Assembly: GCA_014799385.1 (NCBI GenBank)
Contig: JAAVIC010000013.1
Location: 1-64,000 of the forward strand
Source: Oscillospiraceae bacterium
GTDB taxonomy: Bacteria; Bacillota; Clostridia; Oscillospirales; Ruminococcaceae
DNA length: 64,000 nucleotides
Direction: 5' to 3'
A model generated the notes under the pieces. It made no database searches, was not told where the DNA came from, and worked only from the letters and a program-made list of their open reading frames with translations. A program made the position numbers and the translations under genes. Below are positions 1,313 to 58,913 of this stretch, piece by piece (the stretch's first letter is position 1; every line of letters begins with the position of its first letter).

Positions 1313-3802
1313 ATGATTTGTACTAAATGCAACAGCATAGTCCCGGATGAGGCAAAATTTTGCCCATCCTGCGGAGCAGACTGTAAGCCCGCTCCCGCAG
1401 CACAGAACACTTCGGAGAAAAAGCAGTGCGTAAAATGCGGACTGGAGCTTGAAAATAATGCCAAGTTCTGCCCCGTTTGCGGTACGGCGGTGAATGCCGT
1501 ATCTCTTGACAAGCAGCCCGATTCGGACAGCCTTGTTTCGGCAATGCCCGGCTCTGTACCCACACCGACAGCGGTTGCCGCTCCGTCTATGGGAACAGCT
1601 CCTTACACGCCCTCCGCAGACGCAACGCCGAGCGGATTCGGCGAACCTGCTCCAATGCCGCAGTACGCGCCTCCCGCAGGCGGATTCGGCGAGCCTGCTC
1701 CAATGCCCCAGTATGCGCCTCCCACGGGCGGATTCGGCGATATGGGCAATATGGGTGCCGTAAGCTCCGCAGCGGCGGCAACGGCAGCTCCCGTAAAGAA
1801 GAAAAACGGCGCGAAAATCGCTATCATCGTTATCGCTGCGACACTGGTTGCTCTGCTCGCGGCAGCGGCGATTTTCTTCTTCACCAACAGAGCGGCATTC
1901 CTCAGCACGTTTATGGGCAAGTCCAGATATGCGGCAATGGTTGAGGGCAACTCCGTAAAGGAAGCAGCCCAAAAGATTGACGCGTCCGCGATTTCCAACG
2001 GCATAAAGTCCGCTTCTCAACTCTATACGTCCTCGGCAGGTTCGTCGCTTGGCGATATTATGCCGATGTCGTACAACACAAGCGGCGTATCCCTGCCCTC
2101 GGTTTCCGCAACGGATTTCAGCGCCCTGATCGAAACATACAGCAAGGTTCTTACCGAGACTTACGGTGTGGACGCCATCAAGATAACGGGCGGCGCAAAT
2201 ATTAACCTCACCGATTCGGCAATTTCCGCTATCGGTAATGCCTCGGACGTAAAAGAGATCATCGACATCATAAACGGCACGACCTTTACATACGACCTCG
2301 CGGCGAACGATTCCATGGTAGGCGCGTATGTTGGCGCAGAGGGCAAAATCACGGTCAATGCCAAGGTTCTGGTAAACGAGGACGGCACATGCTATCTGGC
2401 TCTCCCGTTCGCATCGGATAAGGCGTTGATGTTCAAGGTGGACAGCGATTCCTATAATACTCCGTCCGCTTCCGAAACAGTAGCTCTGGAGTTGGACGAA
2501 AAGGAAATCTCCCGTCTTATTGAAGAGCTTATCAAGATTTACCTCAAGCACTACGAAAAAGCCGTAACCGAAATGGAAAACGGTTCTCTCACAATTAACG
2601 GCGAACCGATTTCCGGCAAGCTCATCACCGCCGACTTCAACGGAGAAATCCTCTCCGATATGATGAGTGATATGATTAACCACATCGGCGAGGATAAGTA
2701 TCTCTCCACTCAAATCGTTGATTTTGTAAACAAAAACGGCGGCGAGATCACACTCAGCGAATATCAGGCGGCATTCTCGATCGTAGCAAATACCGTTTCT
2801 CTCCCCGATTCCGTGGGCTTCTCCATCAAGACCGTTATCAATAAAAACGGCGACATTCTCGCGAAGTCCTACACAGCGGGTCCGAATAACGAAATCGAGT
2901 TTACATACAAGAACAGCGAAAAGAGCTTTAACGCTCAGCTTATCTTCAACGCAGACGGCGAAAAGTTTACCGCAAAGGTTGACTGCGTAAAGATTGACGA
3001 CAAGAGCGGCACAGTTGAGCTTTCGTTCCAGGAGAACGATGATGGCGAGTACAAGTTCACCATTGCGTACAGCGGCGTTGAAACCGTAAAGAGCTTTAAC
3101 AGAGATGTTACCGTAGGCACATTTACCGTAACCGTTAATATGCCCAAGGGCTTTAACGCAATTGACGATGAGCTGCTCACCGTTCTCGATGGTTTGCAGG
3201 TTACCGTTTCAAGCTCCGCAACCGCAGATTCTCAGACCGTTGACCTCAGCGTAAAGACTCCCGTTTACGGCAATGCGGCGATTACCCTTACGGTAAGCAA
3301 GTCCTCTTCCAATGAGATTCTGGCAGTTCCGAGCAATGTAATCGACTTCAACGGCGATATGGATTCAAATACCGAGAAAAAGTTCGAGGAATTTGAACAG
3401 GAAGTAGAAGACGCTCTCAAGAACATTGACGTTTTCAAGGGCATCATCGGGGAAATTGAGCCTTCCGTACCCGTTACTCCTGTTACACCAAATCCTCCGA
3501 GCATCTTCACTCCCGGCGCTTCTCACGCGAACGATGACTTCTCCTCAATGAGCTTTGACGAGCTTGACGAACTTTTCGATGAGTACATCGACCGCAGATA
3601 TGATGTGTCCGCTTACTCCGGCGACAGCGAATTTTACAGCAAGCTGGTGGATGTCAACGAGACATACTTAACAGCACACAACTACTGGTTTGATTATTGT
3701 TATGAATATGATTACAATGATGAAGCAACTCTTAACGAATTTAGAAACAGCTTGCGTGATTTCGTAATTGCCGTTGAAGCGTGCGAGGCACTTATTGACT
3801 AA
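1313..3802 (+). CDS. Zinc-ribbon, membrane-anchored protein with large extracellular domain
   Basis: 829 residues. Two tandem zinc ribbons open the protein (CTKCNSIVPDEAKFCPSCG near residue 3, CVKCGLELENNAKFCPVCG near residue 42), each with a CxxC...CxxC pattern. A proline/glycine linker follows (residues ~95-145) with two near-identical copies of GGFGEPAPMPQYAPP. One transmembrane helix lies at ~165-190 (AIIVIAATLVALLAAAAIFF). The remaining ~640 residues should lie outside the cell and are beta-rich, without catalytic motifs I recognise. This layout is common in Firmicutes zinc-ribbon proteins of unknown role; sensing or envelope maintenance is only inference. The start has AGAAAGG upstream. 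It is monocistronic, with its own promoter and a terminator. Confidence 0.85.
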   Translation: MICTKCNSIVPDEAKFCPSCGADCKPAPAAQNTSEKKQCVKCGLELENNAKFCPVCGTAVNAVSLDKQPDSDSLVSAMPGSVPTPTAVAAPSMGTAPYTPSADATPSGFGEPAPMPQYAPPAGGFGEPAPMPQYAPPTGGFGDMGNMGAVSSAAAATAAPVKKKNGAKIAIIVIAATLVALLAAAAIFFFTNRAAFLSTFMGKSRYAAMVEGNSVKEAAQKIDASAISNGIKSASQLYTSSAGSSLGDIMPMSYNTSGVSLPSVSATDFSALIETYSKVLTETYGVDAIKITGGANINLTDSAISAIGNASDVKEIIDIINGTTFTYDLAANDSMVGAYVGAEGKITVNAKVLVNEDGTCYLALPFASDKALMFKVDSDSYNTPSASETVALELDEKEISRLIEELIKIYLKHYEKAVTEMENGSLTINGEPISGKLITADFNGEILSDMMSDMINHIGEDKYLSTQIVDFVNKNGGEITLSEYQAAFSIVANTVSLPDSVGFSIKTVINKNGDILAKSYTAGPNNEIEFTYKNSEKSFNAQLIFNADGEKFTAKVDCVKIDDKSGTVELSFQENDDGEYKFTIAYSGVETVKSFNRDVTVGTFTVTVNMPKGFNAIDDELLTVLDGLQVTVSSSATADSQTVDLSVKTPVYGNAAITLTVSKSSSNEILAVPSNVIDFNGDMDSNTEKKFEEFEQEVEDALKNIDVFKGIIGEIEPSVPVTPVTPNPPSIFTPGASHANDDFSSMSFDELDELFDEYIDRRYDVSAYSGDSEFYSKLVDVNETYLTAHNYWFDYCYEYDYNDEATLNEFRNSLRDFVIAVEACEALID

Positions 3803-11404: not shown

Positions 11405-11503
11405 TGCAGATTCAAAACGCGAGCGGGGCGCAACACCACAAAGTGGTGTTGCGGCTTGCTCAGCGAACGCAGACGCAAAGCGTCTGCGTGGTTTTGAATT
11501 TGC
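11405..11503 (+). repeat. Three-way-junction leader repeat, copy 1
   Basis: Closing stem GCAGATTCAAAAC / GTTTTGAATTTGC. Inside are hairpin 2 (GCAACACCAC/GTGGTGTTGC, 11430-11452, extended by an outer GAGC/GCTC pair) and hairpin 3 (CGCAGACGC/GCGTCTGCG, 11468-11488). The closing stem is followed by TATTAAAATAAG. The distance from the stem end to the GTG at 11527 is 23 nt, the same as in other copies. Confidence 0.85.
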
Positions 11504-11528: not shown

Positions 11529-11578
11529 GCAAATTCAAAACGCTTGGCGGCATTTCAAAAGCGCGTTTTTGAATTTGC
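11529..11578 (+). repeat. Leader repeat, reduced copy 2
   Basis: It has the same closing stem as the family (GCAAATTCAAAACGC against GCGTTTTTGAATTTGC) followed by CTATTAAAA, but both inner hairpins are gone. It directly abuts the ATG at 11587, so the usual AAGGAG segment is missing. It looks like a deletion derivative of the element. Confidence 0.7.
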
Positions 11579-19192: not shown

Positions 19193-19678
19193 TTATGAAT
19201 TTCTGTTAAATGACTGACCCGTTGCCTTGCCGACAACCGCGCTGTTGTAGTAACCGATTTTCTGCTTGGTCTGTTTAAGCTGCTCCAACTCGCGGCGAGA
19301 ATCAACGTGGCGATCCTTAAACTGATTGGAAACGACCTTATCCTTGTCGAGGATACGCTGCTTGGCAACCGCCATTGTCTTTTGGAGCAGTTGCAGCTTT
19401 TTGTGCGCCTCGTCCAACGGAACCGAAACATAGCTGCCATTAATCAAAGCCCTCAGCAATGTTTGCTCCTCGGGCAGCTCACAGTCCACCACGGATTCGA
19501 GGTCGCCCTTCAGATCCTCGAGGGTGTCAATAAGCTCGTTTCTGGCAATCAGCCCCTGCTGAACGATCTCCAACTCGGCATTGATCATACTGTCGGTCTG
19601 TTTTTCATATTCCTGGAGCGTTTCGATGATCCGCGTAATGATCTCCGACGCTTTTTCACAACCAAAAATCTCAGCCAT
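19193..19678 (-). CDS. Flagellar chaperone, FliT/FlgN-like
   Basis: 161 residues, almost wholly alpha-helical with heptad spacing (IITRIIETLQEYEKQTDSMI, LIDTLEDLKGDLES, HKKLQLLQKTMAVAKQRIL), as in small export chaperones that keep axial proteins unfolded. It is last in the operon, after fliD and fliS, the place fliT occupies in Bacillus, so FliT-like is the best guess. Sequence alone does not separate FliT from FlgN. The start has AAGGGGGG upstream, and a structured leader repeat fills the gap to fliS. Confidence 0.7.
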   Translation of the reverse strand: MAEIFGCEKASEIITRIIETLQEYEKQTDSMINAELEIVQQGLIARNELIDTLEDLKGDLESVVDCELPEEQTLLRALINGSYVSVPLDEAHKKLQLLQKTMAVAKQRILDKDKVVSNQFKDRHVDSRRELEQLKQTKQKIGYYNSAVVGKATGQSFNRNS

Positions 19679-19699: not shown

Positions 19700-19869
19700 G
19701 AAAATTCAAAACCACACATACGAGCTTTGCTCGTCTGTGTTCGCTAAGCGAGCCGCAACACCGTTTCACGGTGTGTCGCCGGCAACACGATGTTGCCAGC
19801 GACTGCCCAAAACGCAGCACGGATGCTGCGCAATTAAGGCAGTCGCTATAGCTTGCGTTTTGAATTTGC
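19700..19869 (-). repeat. Leader repeat before the fliT-like gene (expanded copy)
   Basis: In gene sense the closing stem is GCAAATTCAAAACGC / GGTTTTGAATTTTC, ending 21 nt before the start codon. Hairpins: ACACAGACGAGC/GCTCGTATGTGT and ACACCG/CGGTGT. Two extra stems are inserted: GGCAACA/TGTTGCC and an outer AGCGACTGCC/GGCAGTCGCT enclosing CGCAGCA/TGCTGCG. It lies between fliS and the fliT-like gene inside the operon. Confidence 0.8.
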
Positions 19870-26352: not shown

Positions 26353-26452
26353 GAAATTCGCGAAACGTCTCACTCCGCTGCGCTCCGTTCGCCTAGCCGA
26401 GCCGCCTTGCCTCCGCTTCACTGCGGCAAGGCATCTCGCTTTCGCAAATTTC
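26353..26452 (-). repeat. Leader repeat proximal to flgL
   Basis: In gene sense the closing stem is GAAATTTGCGAAAG / GTTTCGCGAATTTC, ending 22 nt before the flgL ATG. Inner hairpins: CCTTGCCGCAG pairing with GCGGAGGCAAGG, and an imperfect GGAGC-centred stem. AAATTGAAATAAGGGG follows. It is one of two near-identical tandem copies. Confidence 0.8.
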
Positions 26453-26464
26453 TTATTTCAATTT

Positions 26465-26565
26465 GAAATTCGCGAAACATATCACTCCGCTGCGCTCCGT
26501 TCGCCTAGCCGAGCCGCCTTGCCTCCGCTTCACTGCGGCAAGGCGGCTCGCTTTCGCGAATTTCC
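26465..26565 (-). repeat. Leader repeat distal to flgL
   Basis: Second tandem copy; the repeat unit is about 112 bp. In gene sense the closing stem is GAAATTCGCGAAAG / GTTTCGCGAATTTC. It differs from the proximal copy at only about ten positions, so the duplication is recent. Its AAATTGAAATAAG tail leads directly into the proximal copy, not into a start codon. Confidence 0.8.
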
Positions 26566-33513: not shown

Positions 33514-33536
33514 GTCATTTCTCCTTATTTTTAATT

Positions 33537-33630
33537 GAAATTCCGAAAACGTGCGGACTTCGTCCGCACTAGCTGAGCAACCCGAAACACCGCTACGCGG
33601 TGTTTCGCGCTGCTCGCTTTTCGGAATTTC
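33537..33630 (-). repeat. Leader repeat before pilT
   Basis: Gene sense: closing stem GAAATTCCGAAAAG / GTTTTCGGAATTTC, ending 23 nt before the pilT ATG. Hairpin 2 is GAAACACCGC/GCGGTGTTTC inside a GAGC/GCTC pair, and hairpin 3 is TGCGGAC/GTCCGCA. The sequence of the closing stem differs from the GCAAATTCAAAAC type but the pairing is kept. AATTAAAAATAAGGAG follows. Confidence 0.85.
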
Positions 33631-44014: not shown

Positions 44015-44062
44015 CAAACCGCAAACGGGGAATTTCCTGTGTAAAGCCGCGCTTGCGGTTTG
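44015..44062 (-). repeat. Degenerate leader-repeat copy before pilM
   Basis: Gene sense: closing stem CAAACCGCAAGCG / CGTTTGCGGTTTG, followed by AAAATAAAAACTATGAGG; the stem ends 25 nt before the start. The inner hairpins are reduced. It keeps the family pattern of stem, AT-rich tail and ribosome site. Confidence 0.6.
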
Positions 44063-45382: not shown

Positions 45383-45443
45383 AAGCCGACACCGCGCAGC
45401 CTCCGCGTTCCCGCGGCACAGCCCGGCTGTGCGGTATCAGCTT
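45383..45443 (-). repeat. Divergent three-way-junction element before pilC
   Basis: Gene sense: stem AAGCTGATACCGC / GCGGTGTCGGCTT with two inner hairpins, CACAGCC/GGCTGTG and CCGCGG-GAA-CGCGG. The architecture is the same as the leader repeats, with no sequence identity in the closing stem, and it lies 59 nt from the start. Relationship uncertain. Confidence 0.5.
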
Positions 45444-45682: not shown

Positions 45683-45787
45683 AGTTGTGTAAAGAATAGC
45701 TGTTAGTTATTGGGGTTAAACCACAATTCGCTGCTTGAAGTGCAATTCAGGCACATTATAACTTACAGCAAGTTATTGGTGATTAGT

Positions 45788-45889
45788 GCAAATTGCGAAA
45801 GCGAGCGTTGCAGCATACCGCGAAGCGGTGTGCTGTGACGCTCGGCTAGTGCAGATGAGCGAAGCTCATCTGCACGGTTCGCAATTTGC
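45788..45889 (+). repeat. Leader repeat upstream of glgP, distal copy
   Basis: Closing stem GCAAATTGCGAA / TTCGCAATTTGC, GAGC/GCTC pair around hairpin CAGCATACCGC/GCGGTGTGCTG, and hairpin TGCAGATGAGC/GCTCATCTGCA. It is preceded by AGCAAGTTATTGGTGATTAG, shared with the proximal copy. No start codon follows at the usual distance. Confidence 0.8.
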
Positions 45890-45972
45890 TCTTCAAATCA
45901 ACCAACTACACGCCACGCTTTGGGGGCGCAAGTTTAGAGCGTTATAACAAAAACAAGTTATTGGTGATTAGC

Positions 45973-46070
45973 GCAAATTCAAAACGCAAGCGGCGCGTTA
46001 CACCGCACAGCGGTGTAACGGGTCGCTTAGCGAACGCAGACGCTTTGCGTCTGCGTGGTTTTGAATTTGC
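45973..46070 (+). repeat. Leader repeat upstream of glgP, proximal copy
   Basis: Closing stem GCAAATTCAAAAC / GTTTTGAATTTGC, hairpin CGTTACACCG/CGGTGTAACG, and hairpin CGCAGACGC/GCGTCTGCG. It is followed by CATTAAAAATAAGGAG and, 23 nt from the stem end, the glgP ATG. Flanked upstream by AACAAGTTATTGGTGATTAG. Confidence 0.85.
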
Positions 46071-46093
46071 CATTAAAAATAAGGAGTAAAGAT

Positions 46094-48457
46094 ATGATTG
46101 ATAAGACTTTGTTGAAGAACGATTTTGAGGACATTCTGCGTGAGGGCAGCGCGGATGGCAAAAAGCACACCCCCGCTCAGCTTCATGACGCGCTCTCGCG
46201 GGCGATAATGAAGCAGGCAGTGCCGATGATGAACTGCTCCGCGCCGCAGGGCAGGGGAGCTTCGTACCTGTCTATGGAGTTTCTCGTAGGGCGCGCGGTG
46301 TACAACAACATCTTGTGTCTGGGACTTGCGGACTATGCGGAGGAACTGCTTCAAAGCGCGGGCGGCTCGCTGTCCGACCTTGAAGAAATCGAGGACGCCG
46401 CTCTCGGAAACGGCGGTCTGGGACGGCTTGCGGCTTGCTTTCTTGACAGTGCCGCGACAATGAAGCTGCCGTTGACGGGTTACGGAATCCGATACAAGTA
46501 CGGACTGTTCAAGCAAGCTATTGAGAACGGTTTCCAGCGCGAATATGCGGACGACTGGACAAAATACGGCGACCCGTGGAGCAGACGCGTGGACGATGAC
46601 GAGGTCATTATTCACTTCACTACCGGCGATGTAAAGGCTGTTCCTTATGATATGCCGATTTTCGGTTACAAGAACGATTTCGCGGGAACATTGCGCCTGT
46701 GGCAGGCAGAGCCGGTCTGCGCGTTCGATTTCGATGCGTTCAACCGCGGGGATTACTTTGCGGCAACAACGGGGCAAATCCAGGCGGAGAATATCTCCAG
46801 AACGCTTTACCCGAACGATGAATCTCACGAGGGCAAGGTTCTGCGCCTGAAACAGGAGTATTTCTTTAGCGCGGCGTCAATGGCGGACTTGGTGAAAAAA
46901 CACCTCGCCGCAGGTCGCGATTTAAGCACCTTCGCGGAGTACAACACGATTCAGCTTAACGACACTCACCCCGTAATCTCTATCCCCGAGCTTATCAGAA
47001 TCTTTGTGAACGTTCACGGAATGCCGTTTGAACAGGCATTTGAGATTGTAAAGAATACGTTTAATTACACCAACCACACGATTATGTCCGAAGCGCTTGA
47101 AAAGTGGGGAAGCGGTATCATCGCGGAACTGCTGCCCGAGGTTTACGCGTTCATTCTGCGTATCAACGAAACGTTCATCTCGGATATGTACCGCCGCAAT
47201 ATTGCGCGCGAAAAAATCGAGAGTATGATGCCCGTACGCGACAACACGGTGCATATGGCGCGTATCGCGATCTACTGCTCACGCTATGTAAACGGCGTTG
47301 CGAAAATCCACACCGAAATTCTCAAGAACACCGCGCTGCATGACTGGTACGAGCTGTTCCCCGAGAGATTCCAGAACAAGACCAACGGAATCACCCCGCG
47401 CCGCTGGCTCGCATTGTGCAACCCCGAACTGAAAAAGCTCATTAACGAACTGTTGGACGGCGAAGGCTGGATCACGGATTTGTCAAAGCTCAGCTCGCTG
47501 CGCTCATTCGCTGACGACAAGTCCGTATTGGCGCGGTTCAGCGGAATCAAGCGCGCGAACAAAGCCGCTCTCGCGAAATATATCAAGGAACACGAGGGCG
47601 TGGAGCTTAATCCCGATTCGATGTTCGATATTCAAGTAAAGCGTCTGCACGAATATAAGCGTCAACTGCTGAACGCGTTCTCGATTCTGTACATCTATTT
47701 CGGAATCAAAGACGGAAGTATCTCAAGAGATAACCTCGCTCCCATCACGTTTATCTTTGGCGCGAAGTCCGCTCCGGGATACGCGCGCGCAAAGGGCATT
47801 ATCAAGTTTATCAACGAAATCGGCAACCTTGTAAACAACGACCCGTCCATCAACGGTCTGCTTAAAGTTGTGTTCGTGCAGAATTACAACGTATCTTACG
47901 CGGAAAAGCTGGTTATCGCGGCGGATATTTCCGAGCAAATATCCACTGCGGGAACGGAGGCTTCCGGCACGGGCAATATGAAGTTTATGCTCAACGGAAC
48001 AATGACTCTCGGCACTTATGACGGCGCGAACGTTGAGATCTGCGAGGAGGCGGGCGAGGAGAACAACTACATCTTCGGCGCGCGTGTTGAGGATCTGGCG
48101 CGTATCATGCCGAATTACGACCCGCGTAAAATCTACTCCGAAAACACCCGCGTGGCACGCGTTCTTAACACGCTGATCGATGGCACGTTCAACGACGGCG
48201 GCACGGGAACATTCCGCGAGCTGTACTACTCGCTGCTGGACGGTGCGTCATGGCACAGACCCGACCATTACTACATTCTCGGCGATTTGGAGAACTACGT
48301 TCAGGCAAAGCTCAAAGCAAACAGCGATTTCAAGTTCAACCACGCGGAATTTATCAAGAAGTGCTGGCTGAATATGGCGGCAGCGGGCAAGTTCAGCTCC
48401 GACCGCACCATTGCCGACTACGCAAAGGAAATCTGGAACATCACTCCGCAGAATTGA
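46094..48457 (+). CDS. glgP: Glycogen/maltodextrin phosphorylase
   Basis: 787 residues from ATG 46094 (AAGGAG upstream, part of the leader repeat tail). It releases glucose-1-phosphate from glycogen ends. The PLP-binding lysine lies in GTGNMKFMLNGTMTLGT. GNGGLGRLAACFLDSAAT, ENGFQREYADDWTKYG and QLNDTHPVISIPELIR are standard family blocks. It is slightly shorter than E. coli GlgP (~815), as in many Clostridia. It is remote from glgBCD, so synthesis and breakdown are transcribed separately. Confidence 0.97.
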   Translation: MIDKTLLKNDFEDILREGSADGKKHTPAQLHDALSRAIMKQAVPMMNCSAPQGRGASYLSMEFLVGRAVYNNILCLGLADYAEELLQSAGGSLSDLEEIEDAALGNGGLGRLAACFLDSAATMKLPLTGYGIRYKYGLFKQAIENGFQREYADDWTKYGDPWSRRVDDDEVIIHFTTGDVKAVPYDMPIFGYKNDFAGTLRLWQAEPVCAFDFDAFNRGDYFAATTGQIQAENISRTLYPNDESHEGKVLRLKQEYFFSAASMADLVKKHLAAGRDLSTFAEYNTIQLNDTHPVISIPELIRIFVNVHGMPFEQAFEIVKNTFNYTNHTIMSEALEKWGSGIIAELLPEVYAFILRINETFISDMYRRNIAREKIESMMPVRDNTVHMARIAIYCSRYVNGVAKIHTEILKNTALHDWYELFPERFQNKTNGITPRRWLALCNPELKKLINELLDGEGWITDLSKLSSLRSFADDKSVLARFSGIKRANKAALAKYIKEHEGVELNPDSMFDIQVKRLHEYKRQLLNAFSILYIYFGIKDGSISRDNLAPITFIFGAKSAPGYARAKGIIKFINEIGNLVNNDPSINGLLKVVFVQNYNVSYAEKLVIAADISEQISTAGTEASGTGNMKFMLNGTMTLGTYDGANVEICEEAGEENNYIFGARVEDLARIMPNYDPRKIYSENTRVARVLNTLIDGTFNDGGTGTFRELYYSLLDGASWHRPDHYYILGDLENYVQAKLKANSDFKFNHAEFIKKCWLNMAAAGKFSSDRTIADYAKEIWNITPQN

Positions 48458-50660: not shown

Positions 50661-50696
50661 TATGTTATAGATATGTTAAAAAGAGGGGGCTATGCT

Positions 50697-50904
50697 ATGA
50701 CAGTGGCTTGTTTTGGGCATAAAGATACTCCAAGCGACATCAAACTGCGCTTAGAGCGAGAGATTGTACGTCTGATAGAGGAAAACGAGGATATAACCAT
50801 TCTTGTCGGAACGCACGGCTCGTTCGATGGAATGGTACAGAAAATGCTGAAAAACCTTGCGCCGCGATATCCGAATATGAATTATCATATCGTTCTCGTG
50901 TATT
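50697..50904 (+). pseudogene. Truncated 5' copy of the SLOG gene
   Basis: The first 208 bp are almost identical to 51305-51512 (about 8 differences, mostly third positions). Then homology stops abruptly after CGTTCTCGTGTATT. The frame runs on to 51080 through sequence that is antisense to the XRE gene, so residues after about 69 are not real homologues. The lost half contains the rest of the Rossmann fold. It still has a promoter and AGAGGGGGC, so a short peptide may be made. Confidence 0.8.
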
Positions 50905-51285: not shown

Positions 51286-51304
51286 ATTGTTGAGGTGATG
51301 TTTT

Positions 51305-51730
51305 ATGACAGTGGCTTGTTTTGGGCATAAAGATACTCCAAGCGACATCAAACCGCGCTTAGAGCAAGAGATTGTACATCTGATAGAGGAAAATGAAGAT
51401 ATAACAATTCTTGTCGGAACGCACGGCTCGTTCGATGGAATGGTACAGAAAATGCTGAAAAACCTTGCGCCGCGATATCCGAATATGAATTATCATATCG
51501 TTCTCGCGTATTTACCGGTCAAAAGGGAAGAAAATAACTTTGAGGGGCTGCCGACAATGCTCCCCGAGGGCATTGAGAATGTGCCTAAAAAGTTAGCTAT
51601 CAGCTATCGGAATGACTTTATGGTCAGGGAATGTGATGCCGTTATCTGCTATATCACGCACGATTGGGGCGGGGCGGCACGATTTGTTGAAAAAGCGCGA
51701 CGGCAAGGAAAGCGTATCATTAACCTATAG
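51305..51730 (+). CDS. SLOG-like Rossmann-fold protein
   Basis: 141 residues. ACFGHKDTP at the start and ITILVGTHGSFDGMVQKML look like a SLOG/DprA-related nucleotide-ligand fold; YRNDFMVRECDAVICYITHDWGGAARFVEKA is the second conserved half. SLOG proteins bind nucleotide-derived ligands in stress and defence settings; this type also occurs as stand-alone proteins of unknown role. GAGGTGATG precedes the ATG. Its first half is duplicated upstream at 50697-50904. Confidence 0.8.
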   Translation: MTVACFGHKDTPSDIKPRLEQEIVHLIEENEDITILVGTHGSFDGMVQKMLKNLAPRYPNMNYHIVLAYLPVKREENNFEGLPTMLPEGIENVPKKLAISYRNDFMVRECDAVICYITHDWGGAARFVEKARRQGKRIINL

Positions 51731-56995: not shown

Positions 56996-57103
56996 GAAAT
57001 CCAAAAAGAGTCAAAATTTCCTGCGGAAATTTTGACCGGTTTCGGAATGTTGACAGAGTGAGCGCAGCGAACGGAGCCTAAGCATTCCGAAATTTTGGAT
57101 TTC
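56996..57103 (+). repeat. Leader repeat before a small lipoprotein gene
   Basis: Closing stem GAAATCCAAAA / TTTTGGATTTC, hairpin GTCAAAATTTC/GGAAATTTTGAC, and outer hairpin TTCGGAATG/GCATTCCGAA (with one bulge). It is followed by TATTAAAATAAGGGG; the stem ends 23 nt before the ATG at 57127. All stems differ in sequence from other copies while the fold is kept. Confidence 0.82.
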
Positions 57104-57126: not shown

Positions 57127-57531
57127 ATGCTCATTAAAATCAAAGCGGTTGTTCTTGCGTTAGGCGCGGCTTTGGCATTGAGCGGCTGCGCGAGTACCGC
57201 TCATCGGGACGACCTCGCAGGGAAAGGCTTCGTTTATGAGAAAGGCGGCTTCCCCGACAGGTTCGGAATACAGTTGTACGATGATAACAGCTTTACTTAT
57301 TATGCCGGATCGTTCAGCAGTTACGTTGGATACGGAGCTTGGGAGCTTGACGGTGATACACTGATTCTCCGTGAGAATGCCAACACGACCGGAGATTCAA
57401 ACATATTCAAGTTTAAGGTCGGCGAGGATTCGTTGAGCTATATCGCTGAAGGGTCGGACAAATTTATGTATGTTGACGTTGGCGATGGTGAGAAATTCAC
57501 GGAGGAAAAGTTAAACGGGTTTCCGTTTTGA
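57127..57531 (+). CDS. Small lipoprotein of unknown function
   Basis: 134 residues from ATG 57127; a GTG three codons earlier overlaps the ribosome site. The signal peptide ends in lipobox LSGC, so the protein is membrane-anchored. The mature part has two beta-like repeats (FGIQLYDDNSFTYYAGSF, GYGAWELDGDTLIL), recalling META/lipocalin-like stress lipoproteins, but I do not assign a family. A leader repeat lies directly upstream. Confidence 0.75.
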   Translation: MLIKIKAVVLALGAALALSGCASTAHRDDLAGKGFVYEKGGFPDRFGIQLYDDNSFTYYAGSFSSYVGYGAWELDGDTLILRENANTTGDSNIFKFKVGEDSLSYIAEGSDKFMYVDVGDGEKFTEEKLNGFPF

Positions 57532-57571: not shown

Positions 57572-57669
57572 GCAAATTCAAAACGCGAGCGGGACATATC
57601 ACCGCCCGGCGGTGATATGGCTCGCTCGGCGAGCGCAAACGCACAGCGTTTGCGCGGTTTTGAATTTGC
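57572..57669 (+). repeat. Leader repeat before the cap-like protein gene
   Basis: Closing stem GCAAATTCAAAAC / GTTTTGAATTTGC, hairpin ATATCACCG/CGGTGATAT, GAGC/GCTC pair, and hairpin GCGCAAACGC/GCGTTTGCGC. It is followed by TATTTAGATAAGGAG; the stem ends 23 nt before ATG 57693. Preceded by AGCAAGTGATTGGTGATTCG. Confidence 0.85.
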
Positions 57670-57692: not shown

Positions 57693-58913
57693 ATGACAGT
57701 TGGAAGAACGGCAAGATTACAGTTTAATATGGCAAAGGTTCAAACCCAATACGGGTCGGCTCTGGATAAACTCCAAGGGCAGTACCTTGCGGGCAAATTC
57801 AACAATTACGGCAAGTTTTCAAGCTCCACGCAATCGCTGAACGACCTGCTTAAGAGCAACGCGCTCAAGAATAAGAGCGATATTTACCGCGAGAAGTTCA
57901 GTGAGCTGTATAAGAGCATCTACGGGATTGATGATTCCTCGGAGAGCGAAAGCACGGTTGCTTCCTCGCAGTCGATCAAGACCGCTTCGGCGAATGCGGG
58001 CGGCGCGGCAGAGAGTATCAAGTCTTTCGCCAATGATTTGAAATACGGCGGCGAGGTGGACATTGACGCGTATAAGGCACAAGCACAGAGCTTTGTGGAT
58101 AACTACAACGCGATGATCGACAAGGTTGGAAATTCCGACAATCAGAACGTTCTGCAAAAGGGTGTACTGATGGTAAACACGGGAAAGGTCTACACAAGCT
58201 CCCTCAAACGCGCGGGGATTACCGTGGGCGCGGATAACAAGCTCACGCTGAGTGACGACCTGTCCAAAATCAAGGCGTCGGATATCAAAACGGCATTCGG
58301 CACGAATGGATTCTCGGATAAGGTAATTCAGAAGTCGCGTCAAATCAACACTTTGACGGGCGGTTCGGGGCTGTTCACCAAGAACGTGACAAGCTCCAAC
58401 AAGACCGATTCCACCGAGAAAACCGATAATTCAGGTACTCTCAAGGAGATGACAAACGCAGTCAAGGAAGCGGCGACCGCAGTTAAATCCTACATACACG
58501 GGCTTGGTTCGGAGGAGAACTCGTTCTCCGCGACCGACTTCACCAATACCGCAAAGGACTTTGTGAATAAGTACAACTCGTTTATGGACGAAATGGAAAA
58601 GTCCGATAAATCGACAATTCAGCAAAAGGGAACTACCCTTGCGGGTACGGCTCGCGCATACAAGCATATGTTAGGACGCGCGGGGATTTCCGTGGACGAA
58701 AACGGCAGACTGTCCATCACGGACGCAATCAAGGACATCACCGAAAATGACGCGAAGTACACTTTCGGCAACGGCGCATTCCTTGATAAAGTCACCGAAA
58801 AGGCGAACCAAGTCAACTCTCTTGTAAGCAGCGCAAAGGCTATGGGCTACAACTCCGACAGAACCGCGAACTATGCGTACACAAGCGGCGCGCTTTATTC
58901 CGTTTACGCGTAA
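57693..58913 (+). CDS. Flagellar-cap-like protein with an internal duplication
   Basis: 406 residues from ATG 57693 (AAGGAG). No signal peptide. Two ~115-residue repeats (about residues 105-220 and 290-400) share ...FVDNYNAMIDKV/FVNKYNSFMDEM..., ...TSSLKRAGITVGADNKLTLSDD/KHMLGRAGISVDENGRLSITDA..., ...FSDKVIQKSRQINTL/FLDKVTEKANQVNSL. Each resembles the C-terminal part of FliD, with the FVxxYN pattern. It may be a flagellar-secreted structural or regulatory protein; the link is inference. It is distant from the flagellar operon. Confidence 0.7.
   Translation: MTVGRTARLQFNMAKVQTQYGSALDKLQGQYLAGKFNNYGKFSSSTQSLNDLLKSNALKNKSDIYREKFSELYKSIYGIDDSSESESTVASSQSIKTASANAGGAAESIKSFANDLKYGGEVDIDAYKAQAQSFVDNYNAMIDKVGNSDNQNVLQKGVLMVNTGKVYTSSLKRAGITVGADNKLTLSDDLSKIKASDIKTAFGTNGFSDKVIQKSRQINTLTGGSGLFTKNVTSSNKTDSTEKTDNSGTLKEMTNAVKEAATAVKSYIHGLGSEENSFSATDFTNTAKDFVNKYNSFMDEMEKSDKSTIQQKGTTLAGTARAYKHMLGRAGISVDENGRLSITDAIKDITENDAKYTFGNGAFLDKVTEKANQVNSLVSSAKAMGYNSDRTANYAYTSGALYSVYA

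Follow-up and report, generated by a model that had tools for sequence, protein, structure and literature searches.

A three-way-junction repeat next to ribosome-binding sites in an uncultured Oscillospirales genus, probably a small mobile element

The window analysed here, a whole stretch of 64,000 nucleotides from an Oscillospiraceae bacterium, carries in front of its glgP gene two copies of a structured repeat standing in tandem, with further copies before pilT, flgL and other genes (Table 1). The repeat unit begins with a left arm of about 40-67 nt, continues with a three-way junction (3WJ) of about 98 nt and ends in a 12-nt tail, next to which the Shine-Dalgarno (SD) site and start codon of the host gene are found. 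Within the 3WJ a closing stem of 12-14 bp is followed by a long hairpin, a linker, a second hairpin, a short linker and the closure of the stem; five 13-nt closing-stem arms are the commonest and account for 105 of 150 host copies, many rarer types making up the remainder. The tail is AT-rich (consensus YATTNARATAA, 12 nt) and passes into the SD core, GGAG or GGGG starting at nucleotides 11-14 past the closing stem in 110 of the 150 host copies. Judged by sites of the sister species G052 that lack the element, from which the boundary with the tail was placed, the SD core is apparently part of the host gene. The left arm was missing from the description given in the original prediction, which was made from the letters of the window; it is conserved 5′ of the closing stem in the 150 host copies with the consensus TTATAAC..CAA..TA..GG.GA..AGT, the left end of the element is variable and the limits of the arm are approximate. 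A TATAAT-like hexamer (5 or 6 of 6 positions matching) begins exactly at -31 in 68 of these 150 left arms and falls within -36..-28 in 86, the control windows giving 4-29, while no enrichment of a -35 box was found upstream of it; the most conserved base upstream of the stem is A at -18. The TATAA of the left arm is seen again at -72 and -113, that is with a 41-nt period. Tandem repeats of about 41 nt, composed of the left arm and the first nucleotides of the closing stem, also occur in stretch L057 (about 3437-3640), which suggests slippage or partial insertion. Reading the left arm as the C-terminus of the upstream protein (RYNxKQxxGD in one frame) was rejected, the frame being not generally open and the stops differing.

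A covariance model, R1, was built from the alignment of seven window copies. The original prediction had listed 12 places in the window, eight of which match R1 there (E <= 1e-5); since seven of these built the model, only 19700-19869 is an independent window match and the genome search is the real test. Two more places, the collapsed copy at 11529-11578 and the class II copy at 56996-57103, are related by eye, whereas 44015-44062, which may be a remnant, and 45383-45443, which found no support, gave no R1 match in the window. Class II has two further copies elsewhere in the host genome (C9:33310 and C9:71916), and the neighbours 26465-26564 and 26353-26452 are, by their sequence likeness, apparently a recent duplication. 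Scanning the window against Rfam at the gathering score gave no match on the element; the matches obtained were two skipping-rope RNAs elsewhere (RF02924; 15336-15439 and 15536-15640, both on the minus strand with about 100 nt between them, scoring 49.7 and 47.5 bits), and a permissive scan of 45700-46120 produced four matches, each at about half the gathering score or less and chance-like. No description of this repeat family was found in the literature covered, to which subscription journals contribute little, so that absence from print is not claimed. Apart from the element, the window holds a direct repeat of 209 nt, 97% identical (50696-50904 and 51304-51512), and a nested second small hairpin repeat, roughly GTGACCGCC..GCGCGGC..GCCGCGC..GGCGGTCAC, lies inside hairpin loops of several element copies (window 19700-19869, and in the host the C1:10022 and C9:33310 regions).

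Table 1. Copies of the repeat and their parts in the 64-kb window (R1, covariance model built from seven window copies)
Feature	Position	Strand	Evidence and context
3WJ copy	45973..46070	+	R1 105.5 bits; before glgP (start 46094; glycogen phosphorylase family TIGR02093)
12-nt AT-rich tail of glgP copy	46071..46082	+	Sequence; SD GGAG 46083-46086 and ATG 46094 next
Left arm of glgP copy (GGGGGCGCAAGTTTAG..TTATAAC..CAAGTTATTGGTGATTAGC)	45905..45972	+	Conserved upstream profile; left end approximate
3WJ copy, first of tandem pair	45788..45889	+	R1 96.1 bits; 12-nt tail 45890-45901
Left arm of 45788 copy	45753..45787	+	Left end approximate
3WJ copy before pilT, GAAATTCC stem type	33537..33630	-	R1 102 bits; tail 33525-33536
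3WJ copy	11406..11503	+	R1 102.9 bits
Collapsed copy (closing stem and short loop)	11529..11578	+	Sequence and fold; no R1 match in window
3WJ copy with nested second hairpin repeat (by eye)	19700..19869	-	R1 35 bits; before gene 19193-19678 (-)
3WJ copy before flgL, second of tandem pair, 12-nt spacer	26353..26452	-	R1 match
3WJ copy, 95% identical to tandem neighbour 26353..26452	26465..26564	-	R1 match
Class II copy, same flanks, different inner hairpins	56996..57103	+	By eye; before gene at 57127
3WJ copy before gene at 57693	57572..57669	+	R1 103 bits

In the host genome (G000; 2.69 Mb in 33 contigs, 99.91% complete) 1017 candidates were obtained, and among the best 150 that were scored 148 match R1 at E <= 0.1 and 140 at E <= 1e-3, which rules out chance. 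In 67 stretches totalling 475 kb, the window among them, 212 matches were obtained at E <= 1e-3 with both strands counted, and at least 150 non-overlapping copies were taken from the best places of these stretches. Repeated search over 400 kb of the host without copies among the matches listed added two matches; the host total is perhaps 160-180 copies by our estimate.

Positioning of these copies relative to genes is far from random. An ORF (at least 80 codons, or running off the stretch) starts within 80 nt downstream in the sense direction of 128 of the 150 copies, 124 of them with ATG, as compared to 9 of 150 with ATG in the opposite direction. Inspection by eye of the 22 copies without such an ORF revealed another copy next in 18, a remnant in 2 and short genes in 2, so that nearly every host copy lies upstream of either a gene start or a further copy, in the sense orientation. 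The spacing claimed originally is confirmed, the closing stem ending 21-23 nt before the ATG in six measured copies, and the distance from stem to start is 18-28 nt in 112 of 121 copies with a scored SD start. Placement regardless of start codons, which would have spoken against the prediction, is not seen in the host: a stricter gene-start test is passed by 118 of 150 copies and by 251 of 4000 random intergenic positions and strands, drawn from all intergenic positions, those inside elements included. G052 shows the same placement in 52 of 68 copies, seven more being first members of tandems and nine others including several before short genes (by eye). In two further genomes of the genus, G006 and G022, the gene-start test is passed by no more than 10 of the 27 copies sampled, several of these 10 lying beyond the usual spacing, and many copies have another left-arm-like motif next instead; thus SD targeting is not general to the family, and SD placement is a feature of G000, G052 and some others.

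Search among relatives relied on a second model, R2, of 88 rows including relatives; the best 96 candidates per genome were scored in the genus, with stricter filters. At E <= 1e-4 it finds matches in 14 of 43 genus genomes, host included, from 1 to at least 96 per genome, in agreement with the expectation of further copies in relatives; the richest are G052 (at least 96), G000 (at least 95), G049 (92) and G022 (60), others having fewer. The remaining 29 of 43 gave no match at this threshold among their best 96 candidates. Likewise, none of 294 genomes of an order-level sample besides the host matched, in a shallow search scoring the best 14 candidates per genome. Going by pilT (85%), the closest relatives with a name are uncultured Oscillospiraceae and Clostridia MAGs, names that may omit the host's own genome; no copy before pilT was seen by eye in 14 relatives, L115 having a similar tail together with a short hairpin. 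The closing stems seen in G006 and G022 are mostly GAAATTTC-like, and the left flank is, by eye, mostly without the TATAAT-like hexamer.

The prediction had further claimed that the stems change together with pairing preserved. Covariation is strong: over 150 copies, aligned by fitting to the structure, which favours the pairing figure, 96.9% of 6050 pair cells hold standard pairs, slid controls giving 31-43%, and 35 of 41 pairs have double changes. The manner of change proved different in part, being at least partly block replacement of whole hairpins and not stepwise compensatory mutation. Unpaired bases of the junction are near-invariant in the 88 rows including relatives (one row being an opposite-strand match and one locus occurring twice): the linker A is kept in 88 of 88, the neighbouring G in 87 of 88, and the two G of the third linker in 85 and 78 of 88. 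Mismatches are distributed unequally, G.U plus U.G numbering 228 in the host versus 40 for A.C plus C.A; without the two richest columns the numbers are 136 versus 38, and 29 columns favour G.U versus 6. In G052 they are 113 versus 37 of 2720 cells, and host hairpin 2, taken by itself, shows a small excess (21 to 14). From this G.U excess the sense strand appears to be the folded one. G.T is the better mismatch in DNA too, so the excess alone cannot separate RNA from single-stranded sense DNA.

Comparison with G052, which is syntenic with the host, allowed occupied and empty sites to be read. For 60 host copies the downstream gene could be aligned in the G052 stretches; 38 of them have a G052 copy no more than 60 nt away, as compared to 22 without one, although some of these 22 are first tandem members or weakly aligned; in the reverse direction 35 of 47 G052 copies have a host copy. 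Seventeen differing sites were read by eye. Six are without the element in G052, three of them very clean on both sides (L055:1501/L250, L057:3359/L257 and L044:8017/L245); since the left arm is missing from these three as well, it belongs to the insertion there. The other three contain unmatched G052 sequence of about 30 nt (L046/L249 and L051:12185/L260) or about 100 nt (L044:16565/L245). The native SD core stands directly at the right end of the insertion in five of six empty sites, the L044:8017 site having no SD in either species. A further site, L072/L256, is empty in G052, but its filled counterpart has retained no SD. Nine of the 17 are not simple insertions: three are shared with different contents, one is a degenerate copy, one a deletion remnant, one ambiguous and three poorly aligned. 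At L063/L247 an extra tandem copy of the host lies between the tail and the SD that adjoin in G052, flanked on either side by AAAATCA, perhaps no more than the old tail. By eye, the six sites without the element in G052 show no obvious target-site duplication, and the element has no visible fixed terminal sequence. In the L055:1501 region (L250:13320) the element entered between the end of a terminator-like T-run and the SD, and this leader has no Rfam match at the gathering score.

Shared sites do not imply shared contents. For 31 closely positioned host/G052 pairs, the genes beside which are 92% identical (median), median identity is 65% for the 3WJ and 61% for the left arm; the same-site 3WJ has a median rank of 34 of 68, the value that chance would give, with 65.2% identity as compared to 65.0% for random pairs. 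Nevertheless, the same-site 3WJ is in the top six for 9 of 31 pairs, meaning that part is inherited, and by left arm the same-site copy ranks first or second in 8 of 31. At L055:3590/L250 the left arm and closing stem match and both hairpins differ, while at L042:4259/L246 the stem types differ despite matching left arms. Such comparisons indicate that at least some sites are inherited while their contents are replaced. Tandem neighbours are spaced by 11-15 nt, about one tail, in 11 of 19 pairs; only 4 of 19 pairs are 95-99% alike, the other 15 being not near-identical. This suggests tandem arrays as a route to replacement, the step from tandem to replacement being our inference.

Twenty downstream proteins (17 of a random 20 and three more from the window) have mixed functions spanning amino-acid, purine, glycogen, flagellar, transport, Fe-S and other roles, 4 of 20 being without a family at the cut-offs used; a functional regulon was rejected for the lack of a common theme, and this mixed housekeeping set makes a single ligand regulon unlikely. 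Insulation of the SD by the 3WJ was likewise set aside as at best weak on an in-silico folding test (n=113 of 150), where the mean SD unpaired probability is 0.589 with the 3WJ, 0.520 with its letters shuffled and 0.566 with it removed; the value with the 3WJ is higher than shuffled in 75 copies and higher than removed in only 58. Y1 (PF01797), RVT_1, IS110, TnpB and integron integrase were rejected as movers, none of the five tracking the element in a comparison of presence and absence only. The Y1 transposase has no match at E <= 1e-3 in the host genome; it is present in 8 of 25 genomes searched, and none of 13 Y1 loci examined contains an element match. IS110 Transposase_20 is present in 8 of 43 genus genomes, G000 and G052 not among them. 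RVT_1 gave no match in G006, G022, G049 and G051, which carry 31-92 element matches; since these genomes are 77-90% complete, its lack there is not absolute. Integron integrase (TIGR02249) is above cut-off in 0 of 43 genus genomes, and the weaker matches in all 43 and in 14 controls are other tyrosine recombinases.

We consider the repeat to be a small non-autonomous mobile element of one uncultured Oscillospirales genus, inserted next to ribosome-binding sites and riding in mRNA leaders, and assign to this reading a probability of about 70%. Searches and alignments present it as dispersed, patchy between species, present or absent at orthologous sites and tandem in places, with helix sequences varying, pairing and junction bases kept, and most sites shared with G052 occupied by unrelated copies. 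Mobility, conservation of structure and SD-proximal placement are well supported by these comparisons, while recognition by shape and targeting to the SD are what we infer from them. The moving form would be recognized by a folded single strand, either the sense DNA strand or RNA, and not by sequence, and would enter beside the SD core, which reads GGAG in sense and CTCC on the opposite strand. Such an entry would leave the SD-to-start distance intact, the gene would still work and the copy would survive; new copies could enter between the old tail and the SD, with loss of the older copy by deletion, giving the turnover observed. Transcribed copies would form an mRNA leader, any effect on expression being putative and secondary. 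The prediction had left the choice between selection on RNA shape and a mobile element aimed at ribosome sites; both halves gain support, but the unit also includes the left arm and the 12-nt tail, the SD core is seemingly the host's, the stems change partly by block replacement, and placement at gene starts drops to 10 of 27 in G006 and G022. A bolder proposition is that we deal with a new kind of mobile element, the sense-strand fold of which (single-stranded DNA or RNA) is recognized and delivered by an enzyme specifically to ribosome-binding sites in sense, a self-spreading leader whose sites are inherited and occupants exchanged; it is put forward tentatively, the balance being somewhat against it.

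Other explanations, which are not mutually exclusive, have to be weighed against the same data. The left arm may be a mobile promoter, with the 3WJ and tail as leader, kept for driving the downstream gene. The hexamer at -31 in 68 of 150 left arms, the A at -18, where a start is expected, and the absence of the left arm, as of the element, at empty G052 sites all fit such a portable promoter, but no -35 enrichment accompanies the hexamer, the 41-nt period of TATAA (-72, -113) is as expected of a tandem repeat, the spacing in 11 of 19 tandem pairs is too short for a second left arm, and the left flank in G006 and G022 mostly goes without the hexamer (by eye), which leaves this reading unlikely. 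Rather less can be said for a host cis-regulatory RNA, riboswitch-like or a protein-bound leader, with a large regulon, duplicated and kept by regulatory selection. Its fixed sense position before the SD, conserved junction bases among variable helices, the G.U excess and sites occupied in both species (38 of 60 and 35 of 47 alignable) are what such a leader would produce; yet the downstream genes are a mixed housekeeping set, 3WJs before the same gene in the two sister species are for the most part unrelated, 29 of 43 genus genomes lack a match, hairpin sequences and lengths are not conserved, and Rfam gave no match in the window at the gathering score and weak, chance-like ones in the permissive scan. 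We therefore hold it improbable.

Covariation itself might be devoid of selective meaning if it arose on DNA, by template-switch correction or copying of whole hairpins between copies. Hairpins do change as blocks between orthologous sites and the G.U excess of hairpin 2 is small (21 to 14), but G.U outnumbers A.C in total as well as in 29 of the 35 informative columns, and the junction bases left unpaired hardly vary between species. Part of the G.U excess could come from strand-biased deamination, the mostly-A-U columns being too few to separate the two. This reading, too, is improbable. A classical MITE moved by a cut-and-paste transposase, with the closing stem as terminal inverted repeats, would share with the element the inverted terminal arms, the length of about 100 bp, the many copies and the lack of coding capacity. 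Since arm sequence is not conserved (five commonest types in 105 of 150 copies, many rarer), no target duplication is obvious and the tail and left arm lie outside the arms, we consider it very unlikely.

Among known systems, integron attC is a recombination site recognized by its folded strand and unpaired bases and not by sequence; here, however, no integron integrase exceeded the cut-off in the 43 genus genomes and no gene cassettes were seen. BOX of Streptococcus pneumoniae, composed of boxA-boxB(n)-boxC modules, can extend either operon end (PMC3049150). BOX, as described there, resembles the present element in being interspersed, modular and strongly folded, with parts of 5′ or 3′ transcripts possible, and is thought parasitic, spread mainly in the species' past and variable in size at orthologous sites; by that description the present element differs, its helix sequences turning over around a conserved junction and its copies lying beside the SD. 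REP/REPIN with RAYT (PMC3116915, PMC8266576) share high copy number and extragenic palindromes, as well as the recognition, proposed here, of a folded single strand, but REPs are short (20-40 bp) single palindromes as opposed to a three-way junction of about 98 nt, and RAYT is a Y1 transposase, which the host genome is without. Correia/NEMIS, ERIC and RUP are, according to PMC2229807, non-autonomous repeats below 200 bp with folded transcripts able to affect neighbouring mRNAs, some bacterial MITEs having putative promoters; most such MITEs are bounded by terminal inverted repeats with a TA end motif and show target duplications (PMC2229807), whereas conserved terminal inverted repeats, a TA end motif and target duplications are not seen in the element here. 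The element is a variant of small non-autonomous bacterial repeats outside the REP, MITE and BOX families: REP because neither of the REP features tested is present, MITE because conserved inverted repeats are lacking (as to a target duplication, six sites show none obvious by eye and the tandem site L063/L247 has a doubtful one), and BOX as set apart by description.

Small mobile repeats usually scatter through intergenic DNA. The present family, in a gut bacterium, instead sits exactly in the regions where translation of well over a hundred genes starts; if transcribed with these genes, the element becomes part of their mRNAs. Shape and junction are kept, although the time since two sister species parted has sufficed for replacement of the helices. 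This opens the questions of how a DNA or RNA element finds ribosome-binding sites, whether its insertions rewire expression, and which enzyme moves an element defined by its structure when the genome has no Y1 single-strand transposase. As to distribution over the host genome, copies among the matches listed cluster by contig, 34 being on C1 (237 kb) and 1 on C33 (277 kb), with C1, C2 and C17 contrasting with C33 and C27, which may be related to genome position or replication direction.
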